From Arcobacter sp. CECT 8986 (GTDB lineage Bacteria > Campylobacterota > Campylobacteria > Campylobacterales > Arcobacteraceae): a stretch of 64,000 nt of DNA. The DNA lies in NCBI RefSeq assembly GCF_004116725.1, contig NZ_PDKG01000009.1, forward strand, positions 1-64,000. Direction: 5' to 3'. Under the pieces are notes generated by a model, which was not told the origin of the DNA, ran no database searches, and saw only the letters and a list, made by a program, of their open reading frames with translations. This document shows positions 6,683 through 39,940 of this stretch, in pieces; positions within the stretch are counted from its first letter, which is position 1, and each line of letters opens with the position of its first letter. The translations under genes and the position numbers were made by a program.

Positions 6683-6783
6683 TATTTGTTTTCCTTATTT
6701 TTATTACTTTTTAAAAATCCGATTGCCGCAACTACTGCAACACATGCTAAGAATACTACCATTACAATATCAAGAGTTCCCAT
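6682..6783 (-). CDS. Small single-span membrane protein between rlmN and gltX
   Basis: An ORF of 33 codons plus stop. It starts with ATG after a good AAGGAAG site, overlaps the end of rlmN by 14 bases, and its TAA overlaps the gltX ATG by one base. The protein is [20 protein letters not shown], then [13 protein letters not shown]: one hydrophobic helix (about residues 4-24) and a Lys/Asn-rich tail, predicted N-out/C-in by the positive-inside rule. I do not recognise a family. Ribosome-binding site, overlaps and composition support a real gene; function unknown. Confidence 0.65.
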
Positions 6784-7840
6784 TTGCTTCCTTTTCTTTT
6801 AATTGTCCACATGCTGCTGAAATATCAAGACCTTTTGATTCTCTAATAGTACAAAGCAATCCTCTTTTAATTAAATATTCTTGGAATTTTACCATATCTT
6901 TACTTTCTGGTCTTTGATATGATGTTCCTGGATATGGATTAAAATAGATTAAATTTACTTTAGCTTTAATTCCATTTAATAGTTTTATTAATTTGTCTGC
7001 TGATTTTAAGTCATCATTTTTATTTTTTATTACTAGATATTCAAACATAACTTTTTTTCTTGTATCAACAGGAAACTTTCTAACTGCATCAATAATACTT
7101 TCAATATTGTATGCTTTATTCATTGGAATTAGTTCACTTCTTAATTCATCATCAACTGCGTGTAAAGATATAGCTAATTGAATACCTAAATCTTCATTTC
7201 CTAATTTTTCTATTTTGCTACTTATTCCAGATGTAGATACTGTTTGTCTTCTTCTACTTATTGCAAGTCCATCTAGTTCACTAAATATCTTTACTGCTTT
7301 GATAAAGTTTTTGTAGTTATCAAGTGGTTCACCCATTCCCATATAAACAATATTTAATGATTTGTTTTCTGGAATATTGTTATCTCTTTTTATATTTACT
7401 ATTTGTGAGATATATTCACCAACTGTAAGATTTCTTACAAATCCACCCTTTGCAGTAAGACAAAAAGTACACCCTACTTTACATCCAACTTGTGAAGATA
7501 TACATACAGTATATTTTTCACTTTTTTCTATTGTTCCATCTTCAGCTATTTGCTTTTTCTTCATAAGAAGTAATACAGCTTCAACTGTTAACCCATCTCT
7601 TAATTTGAATAGATATTTTATACTTCCATCAGTACTTATCTCTTTTTTTACTATTTCCATCAATTGAATATCGTAATTCTCTTTTAGGTTTTCTTTTAAG
7701 TCTTTTGGTATATTTTTCATCTCTTCAAAAGTAGAAGCATATTTTTTATAAAGCCAGTTATAAACTTGTTTTGCTCTAAAAGAAGGTTTTAGTTGTTCTT
7801 TTAATTCATCTAATGTAAAATCATATATTGATTGTTGCAT
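6770..7840 (-). CDS. rlmN: Dual-specificity 23S rRNA/tRNA adenine C2-methyltransferase RlmN
   Basis: A 356-residue radical-SAM enzyme that methylates A2503 of 23S rRNA and A37 of some tRNAs. The radical-SAM motif CKVGCTFC gives Cys120, Cys124 and Cys127. The methyl-carrying C-terminal cysteine is in the SAACGQL region (about Cys344). [14 protein letters not shown], the SAM-binding GGE-like motif, is intact. The length is normal. An AAAGG site precedes the ATG. It is the first gene of a coupled rlmN / small membrane protein / gltX unit. Confidence 0.95.
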
Positions 7841-7918: not shown

Positions 7919-7936
7919 TTGTTTCACGTGAAACAA
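7919..7936. other. parS-like centromere site (1)
   Basis: An 18-bp perfect palindrome, TTGTTTCACGTGAAACAA. Its 14-base core GTTTCACGTGAAAC is the ParB/Spo0J target core known from Bacillus subtilis and many other bacteria. It is intergenic, between rlmN and the nucleoside phosphorylase-like gene, and is paired with a second site 46 bases away. Confidence 0.85.
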
Positions 7937-7966
7937 TGAAATGAAATGTAAGTTTTCATATCAAAA

Positions 7967-7980
7967 GTTTCACGTGAAAC
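7967..7980. other. parS-like centromere site (2)
   Basis: A second perfect copy of the 14-base palindrome GTTTCACGTGAAAC, 46 bases (start to start) from the first. The spacer is AT-rich and noncoding. Confidence 0.85.
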
Positions 7981-8003
7981 ATCGAAATAAAATAATAAAA
8001 ATA

Positions 8004-8552
8004 TTAGTGATTTATTGATTTGATTATATTTTTTTCAATAAGGTATTGAGTAAGTTTTGACATTGCTTCTTTATGATTTTTCATAAAGTCATCATGTGCA
8101 GTTTCATTAGTATAGTTAGTAACAACAAAAATTCCAGCAGCTGGAATTTCAAACTCTTTTGCTACTTGAAGAACAGAAAAAAATTCCATATTTTCTATAC
8201 CAATACCATAAGCATTAAAATTTTTACTTAATGAAAAATTTGATGATATATAATTTGAACTATTAACAATAGTATCATTTTTAGCTAAGTTATTCTCTGA
8301 TTCAATAACATTATCAAGTGGTGTATATGAATCATTATTTAAAAAAGAGAGTTCAATATTTGATGCTCGTTTTGATTCAATGATATCAAATATATTATGT
8401 TCTCCATAAGAACCAGCCGTACCAATAAAAAGTAAAAAATCAGGTTTATCAAAAAGGCATCTTCTTGTTAAATTGATAGCACTTTCTATTAACCCTACTC
8501 CCATTGGTTGAGCGAAGTTAAATACTTCATTTCTTCCTGCACATACAACCAT
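8004..8552 (-). CDS. Nucleoside phosphorylase superfamily protein (short)
   Basis: 182 residues. FIGTAGSYG (about 42-50), the glycine-rich phosphate/ribose loop, and GIGIENMEFFSVLQVAKEFEIPAAGIFVVTN (given here in parts: GIGIENMEFF about 117-126, then IPAAGIFVVTN) are typical of the PNP/MTAN fold, where the Glu-Asn-Met-Glu segment binds ribose. Family members usually have 230-280 residues, so this is short, mainly at the N-terminus. The ATG overlaps the stop of the SIMPL gene (TAATG). Substrate is unknown; a role in futalosine or purine salvage is possible but not shown. Confidence 0.72.
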   Translation of the reverse strand: MVVCAGRNEVFNFAQPMGVGLIESAINLTRRCLFDKPDFLLFIGTAGSYGEHNIFDIIESKRASNIELSFLNNDSYTPLDNVIESENNLAKNDTIVNSSNYISSNFSLSKNFNAYGIGIENMEFFSVLQVAKEFEIPAAGIFVVTNYTNETAHDDFMKNHKEAMSKLTQYLIEKNIIKSINH

Positions 8553-12881: not shown

Positions 12882-13853
12882 ATGAATTATAAAGAGCTTG
12901 CAAAAGAGGTTTTATTAACTGAAGCAAATGAATTGGAAATTGCTGCACAGAAGTTAGATAATGATGAAATTGATTTTGAAAAGGTTGTTGATTTAATTGT
13001 AAATTGTAAAGGAAAACTAATAGTAACTGGTGTTGGAAAGTCAGGATTAGTTGGAACAAAAATTGCAGCAACTTTAGCAAGCACAGGAACAAGCTCTTTT
13101 TTCCTTCATCCTACTGAAGCTATGCATGGTGATTTAGGAATGATAGGTAAAGAAGATATTGTTTTAGGAATTTCTTATAGTGGAGAGAGTGAAGAGCTTA
13201 TTCAGATTCTTCCGCATCTTAAAAGATTTGATATTCCATTAATTGCAATGGCAAGAAGTAAAGAATCAACACTTGGTAAATATGCTGATTTCTTTATGAA
13301 TATAAATGTTACAAAAGAAGCATGTCCTTTAGATACTGCTCCTACTTCTTCTACTACATTAACAATGGCAATGGGAGATGTATTAGCAGTTTGTCTTATG
13401 AAAAAAAGAGAGTTCAAAAAAGAGGACTTTGCTTCTTTTCATCCTGGTGGAAGCTTAGGAAAACAACTTTTTGTAAAAGTTGATGATTTATTAAGAAAAG
13501 ATAATCTACCTGTAGTTTCACGTGAAACAAAACTAAAAGATGCAATTGTAACAATGAGTGAAGGTAGAATTGGAAGTGTTATTGTAGTTGATGAAAATAA
13601 AAAAGTTGTAGCACTTTTAAGTGATGGAGATTTAAGAAGAGCATTAATGAGTGATAACTTCTCTTTAGATTGTTCTATTGAAGAAGTAGCTACAAAAAAT
13701 CCTAAGTTAATAAATGATAAAAATTTATTAGCAAGTGATGCATTACACATTATAGAAGATTATAAAATACAACTTCTTATTGTAGTTGATAGTAGTGAAA
13801 ACTTAGTTGGAGTTTTACACATACATGACTTAATTGAAGCTGGTATAAAATAA
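12882..13853 (+). CDS. kpsF: Arabinose-5-phosphate isomerase, KpsF/GutQ family
   Basis: A 323-residue cytosolic enzyme that interconverts ribulose 5-phosphate and arabinose 5-phosphate, the first step to KDO for lipopolysaccharide. A SIS domain (about 38-170) shows GVGKSGLVGTKIAATLAS, SYSGESEE and the TAPTSSTT loop; two CBS domains fill about 205-320. It lies eight bases after RNase J. The codons around 13515-13528 contain a perfect parS-like palindrome read as VSRET without disturbing the frame. Confidence 0.95.
   Translation: MNYKELAKEVLLTEANELEIAAQKLDNDEIDFEKVVDLIVNCKGKLIVTGVGKSGLVGTKIAATLASTGTSSFFLHPTEAMHGDLGMIGKEDIVLGISYSGESEELIQILPHLKRFDIPLIAMARSKESTLGKYADFFMNINVTKEACPLDTAPTSSTTLTMAMGDVLAVCLMKKREFKKEDFASFHPGGSLGKQLFVKVDDLLRKDNLPVVSRETKLKDAIVTMSEGRIGSVIVVDENKKVVALLSDGDLRRALMSDNFSLDCSIEEVATKNPKLINDKNLLASDALHIIEDYKIQLLIVVDSSENLVGVLHIHDLIEAGIK
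13515..13528. other. parS-like centromere site (3), inside kpsF
   Basis: A perfect copy of GTTTCACGTGAAAC within the kpsF coding sequence, about 5.5 kb from the intergenic pair. Intragenic parS sites are common in other bacteria. Confidence 0.78.
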
Positions 13854-21611: not shown

Positions 21612-22667
21612 TTATAGATTATCTTTGATGTATTGATAATTAGATATTTTTGTCCACTCTCTTACTGTTTTCATATAATCTTCTTGAGATTTGAAAACCT
21701 CTTTTAAAATAGGTGATTTTACTGCCATCTCTTCTCTTAGTTGTGAATTTGCTTTTTTAAGTGCAACCATAACATCTTTTGGAAAAGATTTTATTTTGAT
21801 ATCTGGATACTCTTTTTTCATCTGCTTCCAAGCTTTTGCATTTAAATCATAGTTTTTAATATACATATCATATGCAGCCATTTTAAATGCTAAAACTAAT
21901 ACTTTTTGCAATCTTTTTGGAAGTTTATTAAAAGTTCTTGTATTTACAATAAATTGCATCTCAGATGCTGGCTCATGCCATCCTGTGTAGTAATACTTTG
22001 CAACTCTATGAAAGCCCATTTTTATATCCATTGATGGCCCTACCCACTCTAAAGCATCTATATTTCCTCTTTCAAGTGAAGTATATAACTCTCCTGGAGC
22101 AACATTCGTAACAAGAACACCAACTTTTGCCATAATTTCACCTGCAAAACCTGGAATTCTCATTTTTAAACCTTTTAAATCAGAAAGTGATTTTATCTCT
22201 TTTTTAAACCAACCTCCCATTTGAACACCTGTATTTCCCCCTGGAAATGATAGAACTTTATGTCTACTATATGCTTTTTGCATAAGTTCTAATCCACCAC
22301 CATAATAAAACCAAGCATATTGTTCAGGTGCTGTCATTCCAAAAGGCATAGAAGTAAAAGGTAAAGTATTTATATCTTTGCCTTTCCAATAGTAAGATGC
22401 AGAGTGACCAATATCATATTGCCCTGCTTTTACCATATCTAAAATACCAAAAGGAGATTTATGTTTATTTGCACTATCTACTCTTATTTTTAGTTCGCCA
22501 TTTGACATCTCATCGGCTAGTTTTGCTGCTTCTTTTGCTATATCTATTAAAGGCGAAGAAGTTTTTCCCCAGCTAGTAGCCATTTTTAGTCTATATTCTC
22601 TTGCATTTGCAGTTGTACTAATAAATATAATTAAAAGTAAAACTACAAGTTTGATTGATTTTTGCAT
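21612..22667 (-). CDS. Orphan TRAP-type solute-binding protein (DctP paralogue)
   Basis: 351 residues with a signal peptide (about 1-22) and the full DctP fold. It closely matches the DctP at 38870 throughout: shared blocks include KMATSWGKT/KLATTWGST, WKGKDIN, PFGMTAPEQYAWFYYGGG, KMRIPGFAGE, APGELYTSLERG and YYTGWHEPA. The arginine that normally pairs with the carboxylate of the ligand is in KMRIPGF. No DctQ/DctM genes accompany it here, so it may feed the DctQM at 40050-42004 or act as a sensor. It follows bluB with a 10-base gap, so it is probably in that unit. Confidence 0.9.
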   Translation of the reverse strand: MQKSIKLVVLLLIIFISTTANAREYRLKMATSWGKTSSPLIDIAKEAAKLADEMSNGELKIRVDSANKHKSPFGILDMVKAGQYDIGHSASYYWKGKDINTLPFTSMPFGMTAPEQYAWFYYGGGLELMQKAYSRHKVLSFPGGNTGVQMGGWFKKEIKSLSDLKGLKMRIPGFAGEIMAKVGVLVTNVAPGELYTSLERGNIDALEWVGPSMDIKMGFHRVAKYYYTGWHEPASEMQFIVNTRTFNKLPKRLQKVLVLAFKMAAYDMYIKNYDLNAKAWKQMKKEYPDIKIKSFPKDVMVALKKANSQLREEMAVKSPILKEVFKSQEDYMKTVREWTKISNYQYIKDNL

Positions 22668-38869: not shown

Positions 38870-39940
38870 ATGATGTTTAAAAAGACAACGAAATTGTTGG
38901 TTGCTACGGCTTTAGTTGCGGGACTAAGTACAGCAACATTTGCAAAAGATAGAGTGTATAAGTGGAAATTGGCAACTACTTGGGGTTCAACTCTATCACC
39001 TTTTATTGATGCACCAAAAAATATGGCAAAACTTGTAGAGGAGATGTCTGATGGGAGACTTCAAATCAGAGTTGATGCTGCAAATAAACATAAAGCACCA
39101 TTAGGTATTTTAGATATGGTAAAAGCAGGGCAATATGAGATGGGTCACTCTGCTTCTTATTATTGGAAAGGTAAAGATATAAATCTTCTACCATTTACAA
39201 CAATGCCTTTTGGTATGACTGCTCCTGAGCAATATGCATGGTTCTATTATGGTGGTGGAATGGAATTAATGCAAAAAGCATATAAAAAACATAAAGTATT
39301 ATCTTTCCCAGGTGGTAACTCTGGTAACCAAATGGGTGGTTGGTTTAGAAAAGAGATTAATTCTGTTGAAGATTTAAAGGGATTAAAAATGAGAATTCCT
39401 GGATTTGCTGGAGAAGTTCTAGCAAAATTAGGAGTTACAGTAACAAATATTGCTCCAGGTGAATTATATACTTCACTTGAAAGAGGAACTATTGACGCAT
39501 TAGAGTGGGTAAGTCCATCAATGGATGTTAAAATGGGATTCCATAAAATTGCTCCATACTATTATACAGGATGGCATGAACCAGCAACAGAGTTACAATT
39601 TTTAGTAAACCAAAGAAAATTTGATAGATTACCAAAAGATTTACAAAAAATCTTAGTTACAGCAATGAGAGTATCTGCTTATGATATGTATGTAGAGAAC
39701 TATCATATGAACTCAGAAGCTTGGGCGAATATTGAAAAAGATTTTCCAAATGTTAAAATCAAAACATTCCCTAAAAGTGTAATTAATGCTATGAAAAAAG
39801 CAAATGATGAGTTATTAGTAGAAAAAGCAAATCAAAGCCCACTATTAAAAGAGGTATTAAAATCTCAAGCTGAATACTTGAAAAAAGTAAGAGAGTGGAC
39901 AAAAATGGCAGATTATAAATATTTAGAAGATAATTTATAA
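38870..39940 (+). CDS. dctP: TRAP transporter solute-binding protein DctP
   Basis: 356 residues with a signal peptide (about 1-25, cleavage after ATFA). DctP fold with KLATTWGST, MRIPGFAGE and ERGTIDALEWV. It captures an organic acid in the periplasm for DctQM. Neighbouring lactate oxidation genes on both sides suggest lactate or pyruvate as ligand; TTHA0766 and TakP of this broad family bind lactate and keto acids. AAAGGAG upstream. Hairpins after the gene may make it more abundant than dctQM. Confidence 0.94.
   Translation: MMFKKTTKLLVATALVAGLSTATFAKDRVYKWKLATTWGSTLSPFIDAPKNMAKLVEEMSDGRLQIRVDAANKHKAPLGILDMVKAGQYEMGHSASYYWKGKDINLLPFTTMPFGMTAPEQYAWFYYGGGMELMQKAYKKHKVLSFPGGNSGNQMGGWFRKEINSVEDLKGLKMRIPGFAGEVLAKLGVTVTNIAPGELYTSLERGTIDALEWVSPSMDVKMGFHKIAPYYYTGWHEPATELQFLVNQRKFDRLPKDLQKILVTAMRVSAYDMYVENYHMNSEAWANIEKDFPNVKIKTFPKSVINAMKKANDELLVEKANQSPLLKEVLKSQAEYLKKVREWTKMADYKYLEDNL

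Follow-up and report, generated by a model that had tools for sequence, protein, structure and literature searches.

Two questions are raised by a short palindrome occurring three times near the beginning of this contig: what the copies stand for, and what keeps one of them inside the coding sequence of a conserved enzyme. The window, i.e., the whole stretch of DNA that was analyzed (64,000 nucleotides, positions 1–64000 of contig C9), belongs to a draft genome of 2,648,654 bases (2.65 Mb; 36 contigs, 100% complete) from the genus Malaciobacter, family Arcobacteraceae, with the nearest named kpsF genes found in Arcobacter sp. CECT 8985 (94%) and Malaciobacter halophilus (90%).

Palindromes, replication origin and partition genes

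Scanning the window for the exact 14-mer GTTTCACGTGAAAC returned positions 7921–7934, 7967–7980 and 13515–13528, reproducing exactly those given in a preliminary description of this DNA, and no further copy with one or two mismatches was present within the 64 kb. The features concerned are the following:

6770..7840, minus strand: rlmN, with the pair of putative parS sites in its upstream region
7920..7935, no strand: putative parS site 1, perfect TGTTTCACGTGAAACA, intergenic between rlmN and the nucleosidase-like gene
7966..7981, no strand: putative parS site 2, AGTTTCACGTGAAACA, sharing a 27-nt direct repeat with site 1
8004..8552, minus strand: nucleosidase-like (PNP_UDP_1) gene, with the pair on its downstream side
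12882..13853, plus strand: kpsF, KpsF/GutQ-family arabinose-5-phosphate isomerase with SIS and CBS domains
13514..13529, no strand: putative parS site 3, within kpsF at codons 212–216 (GTT TCA CGT GAA AC/A, the slash marking the end of the palindrome; V-S-R-E-T), near the start of the first CBS domain

Structured RNAs or tRNAs were not found in the window. Farther downstream, at 21612–22667 and 38870–39940, two closely similar TRAP-transporter solute-binding proteins are encoded about 16 kb apart.

Throughout the whole draft genome, the exact 14-mer is present in just these three copies, the intergenic pair and the one in kpsF, all no more than 5.6 kb apart, a count derived from 36 contigs whose gaps could hide another site. 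The copies are thus not scattered over the genome, in agreement with the preliminary description, while the reversed control pattern gave 0 matches and the expectation by chance from base composition is about 0.005 copies per genome. When extending the search to the 16-mer with up to three mismatches, 37 places were obtained versus 49 for the control pattern, and the closest 16-mers beyond the trio, bearing two mismatches, are at background level. The full palindrome TGTTTCACGTGAAACA, which we take to be the 16-bp parS consensus, is perfect at 7920–7935, whereas sites 2 and 3 each deviate from it by one outer mismatch, resulting in 0, 1, and 1 mismatches for sites 1, 2, and 3.

A location close to the replication origin can be deduced from complete genomes of congeners whose chromosomes start with dnaA. 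The trio is found there at 44.4, 44.6, and 50.2 kb (G079), at 42.6, 42.6, and 48.1 kb (G080), and at 46.6, 46.8, and 52.3 kb (G081). On the G080 map, the dnaA contig of the present draft, C10, ends at about 33.7 kb and C9 starts at about 34.7 kb, i.e., only about 1 kb separates the two contigs, placing site 1 of our strain about 41.7 kb from dnaA. Position 1 of the window is accordingly a contig end, with the dnaA contig stopping about 1 kb earlier by this comparison. Cumulative GC skew in G080, sampled as 20 kb every 70 kb, has its minimum at dnaA and its maximum near 1.5 Mb. Across 31 complete genomes of the family, the listed parS sites have a median distance to dnaA of 2.7% of the genome, with 5.7% as the largest value, bearing out the suggestion that this segment is near oriC and that the sites cluster within about 10% of the genome around the skew minimum.

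A single ParB-domain match was detected in the genome, on contig C3, so that absence of a parB gene, which would have spoken against the initial proposal, does not apply. The parA gene adjoins (parA–parB at L036:8280-9933), with the ATP synthase operon located beside it. The encoded chromosomal ParB has 290 amino acids with the domains ParB_N and HTH_ParB, and its best PDB match is 4umk (E 4.5e-64), presumably the ParB–parS complex of Helicobacter pylori. A structure of the Helicobacter pylori ParB–parS complex is mentioned in the literature (PMC7053999). The recognition region KSR-...-NT-...-GHAK (KSRTSITNTLRLLH...SAGHAK) retains the equivalents of R173 and G201, residues associated with reading of parS rather than NBS (Jalal et al., PMC7383237), and at the positions equivalent to the Noc set Q173, K179, K184, and R201 the protein bears R, T, H, and G. 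The gene pair is remote from its putative targets: in none of the 31 complete genomes is parAB close to oriC or to the parS sites, parB being 373–968 kb (19–31% of the genome) from dnaA. Proximity of parAB to oriC is a common arrangement and no defining requirement, and in this family the partition proteins would act in trans on sites 0.4–1.0 Mb away.

Considering the canonical 16-bp form, the proximity to the origin and the presence of a chromosomal parB, the early assignment of the palindromes as ParB targets holds: the three copies are almost certainly the parS sites of a chromosomal ParABS system, and would constitute the centromere of the Malaciobacter chromosome about 42–48 kb from dnaA.

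Constraint on the kpsF copy

Across the family, the site within kpsF is in frame at the same codons, 212–216, in 82 of 83 orthologs, and these 82 also keep the palindrome GTTYCAYRTGRAAC. The set comprises all genomes examined minus four in which the best match is a relative of 45–46%. Not a single change was found among the 82 genes at third codon positions within the palindrome, while first and second positions do vary, giving rise to the peptides V-S-R-E-T, V-S-R-G-T, V-S-C-G-T, V-S-H-G-T, V-P-H-G-T, V-P-Y-G-T, and V-P-R-E-T. All of these amino acid changes keep a parS-like palindrome, and the third position of Thr216, the first free one beyond it, varies among ACA, ACT, ACG, and ACC. Likewise, when only the 75 distinct kpsF genes bearing the exact site are considered, a set selected for that site for which the 83 orthologs are the fairer test, the Arg codon is CGT in all of them, although CGT accounts for only 3.1% elsewhere in kpsF. 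The mean top-codon share over 148 conserved columns of the same genes is 0.71, and four of the seven columns with an invariant codon are codons 212–215. The lone exception among the 83 orthologs (G043 of genus g8, locus L228) encodes V-A-S-G-T without a parS site. This genome is a metagenome-assembled bin in which contamination amounts to 7% and two ParBs of chromosomal type are encoded, and its kpsF is possibly on a foreign contig.

Conservation of the kpsF copy might alternatively reflect protein constraint on V-S-R-E-T, with the palindrome being incidental. The peptide VSRET is indeed encoded by 65 of the 83 orthologs, as this explanation would require. Nevertheless, outside Arcobacteraceae the peptide at this place is free (VSEDT, CDETT, ISEKT, INRNT), and within the family VSCGT, VPHGT, and VPYGT occur while the synonymous positions stay fixed. 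Together with use of the rare CGT codon throughout the VSRET genes, this makes the protein explanation hardly credible. By the codon evidence, the kpsF copy of parS is maintained at the DNA level inside a coding sequence across the whole family, and this stretch of KpsF follows the putative centromere, not vice versa. In this interpretation, the demands of a centromere site can override the protein sequence of a conserved enzyme, with frozen third positions and changing amino acids.

Site turnover, the close pair and ParB residue 187

In all, 82 of 104 family genomes contain exact GTTTCACGTGAAAC, with three copies in all six genomes of the present genus, two in all 16 of genus g10, and one in all 31 of genus g2. 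The kpsF site is the constant member across genera, always in the same frame, accompanied by partner sites upstream of rlmN (own genus, g3, g4, g7, g10, g17, g18, and g20), in rarA (g3) or in genes downstream of phoH (g2, g3, g5, g16, and g19). Sulfurospirillum-type relatives lack the site in kpsF and have two sites flanking rlmN in the corresponding neighbourhood, one of which is inside the nucleosidase-like gene. The rlmN–kpsF segment would hence appear to be an ancient centromere region with gain and loss of individual sites. Parts of other coding sequences also contain parS-like sites, namely rarA and a NadB-like gene in g3 (G032, L105:3335 and L105:8245) and an sdhB-like gene in g2 (G001, L124:5931), the latter in frame and encoding V-S-H-E-T.

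This distribution also bears on the idea that the palindromes are operators of a local transcription factor for rlmN, the nucleosidase-like gene or kpsF. Palindromes are typical of operators and two of the three are upstream of rlmN, but the third is deep within kpsF, and the partner is located, depending on the genus, ahead of rlmN, within the nucleosidase-like gene, in rarA or in genes that follow phoH, places that have no promoter in common. Moreover, the sites are found only near dnaA and covary with a ParB residue (see below). Due to these unrelated places across genera and a promoter scan giving nothing above shuffles, the operator was rejected as exceedingly improbable.

A further proposal of the preliminary description, that the close pair may be a nucleation hub, fared less well, also in the extended form of a functional, helically phased hub that would explain the cluster. 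A spacing of 45–46 bp is indeed seen in three Malaciobacter genomes (46 bp in the present strain and G080, 45 bp in G082), whereas two congeners have 222 bp (G079) and 231 bp (G081), and most genera possess at most one site in the intergenic region upstream of rlmN. In addition, both copies of the pair lie in direct repeats of 27 nt that share 89% identity and start 46 bp apart, which suggests that the two intergenic copies arose by local duplication. With the spacing varying among such close relatives, a phased hub is unlikely. The motif TGAAATGAAA following each copy of the pair was also considered. Although seemingly conserved within Malaciobacter, it is missing from the sites of other genera and from kpsF, and was therefore discarded and read as a duplication footprint. 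In another Malaciobacter draft, G078, the assembly breaks between the intergenic parS copies (L129:84 and L130:126).

Genera lacking the exact 14-mer (g6, g8, g9, g11, and g13) show one to three sites of a degenerate form per genome, for which the reversed control gave 0 matches in 19 of 20 genomes. These sites are next to kpsF or share a contig with dnaA, as seen in G044 (C10), G046 (C40), G073 (C24), and G039 (C11). When scanning the ParBs of 70 genomes, residue 187 emerged as the sole one of 195 positions that fully separates genomes with CG-centre sites from the others: Ala (53) or Ser (1) goes with CG-centre sites and F, L, H, Q, I, or V is present in all 16 others. The residue aligns with Caulobacter position 200, adjacent to specificity residue 201. 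On the tree, however, the association comprises only two independent changes of residue 187 versus parS centre, the kpsF site of G071 still has a CG centre, and g3 genomes with Ala187 carry several CATG-centre sites. Residue 187 is therefore treated as a lead only, and a strict code for the parS centre was rejected in view of the g3 genomes.

The kpsF coding sequence might thus have been under family-wide centromere selection through about 20 genera, with drift at residue 187 (Ala/Ser to F, L, H, Q, I, or V) shifting the parS centre from CG to CA, TG, or TA and KpsF amino acids changing alongside, a tentative scenario to which we give slightly less than even credence. If true, Arcobacteraceae would be a natural record of ParB–parS co-evolution, and a specificity position outside the four defined for ParB/Noc would be indicated. 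In the diverged genera, naturally occurring variants of parS come together with variants of ParB, making the evolution of parS-centre specificity testable.

Proposed mechanism and comparison with known systems

Following established ParABS biology, ParB dimers would load at each 14–16 bp palindrome, close with CTP and slide into the flanks, giving one partition complex over the ~6-kb cluster. ParA would move this complex, by which the origin region would be segregated first, with ParA and ParB being supplied in trans by genes about 0.8 Mb distant. As one parS copy is located in kpsF and would be selected for ParB binding, its codons would be fixed, and drift of the site would carry the KpsF amino acids along.

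SMC loading at this segment, also proposed in the preliminary description, would mean that the sites serve as loading hubs for SMC/condensin as well as being cargo of ParA. In many bacteria, SMC is loaded by ParB at parS. Set against this, none of 104 family genomes gave an SMC_hinge match over the curated cut-off, which carries little weight since the same search misses Caulobacter and some other controls. Such an additional role is rather doubtful, and the sites are here regarded as the parS cluster of a ParABS system.

A literature search extending to sources other than the Livny 2007 survey found none detailing parS in Arcobacter or Campylobacter, and the present analysis places the centromere of Arcobacteraceae. 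With the known chromosomal ParABS systems, for example those of Bacillus subtilis, Caulobacter crescentus, and Pseudomonas aeruginosa and the one represented by the ParB structure 4umk, the proposed system shares the 14–16 bp palindrome core, sites clustered near oriC and one ParA–ParB pair. For P. aeruginosa, parS sites within genes have been described before (PMC4368675). What sets the proposed system apart is the distance between parAB and dnaA (19–31% of the genome), the family-wide retention of one site within kpsF, and, in some Arcobacteraceae genera, the use of parS with a non-CG centre. Noc, a related DNA-binding protein family, recognizes a similar palindrome, NBS, which departs from parS at bases 1 and 6. 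The sites found here are of the parS type, and at the specificity positions the ParB of our strain carries R and G, as parS readers do, instead of the Noc set. The ParABS centromere is well supported and, as a system, nothing out of the ordinary; what stands out is the unusual clarity with which one of its sites is seen to be fixed within a coding sequence, and possibly a co-evolution of ParB and parS.
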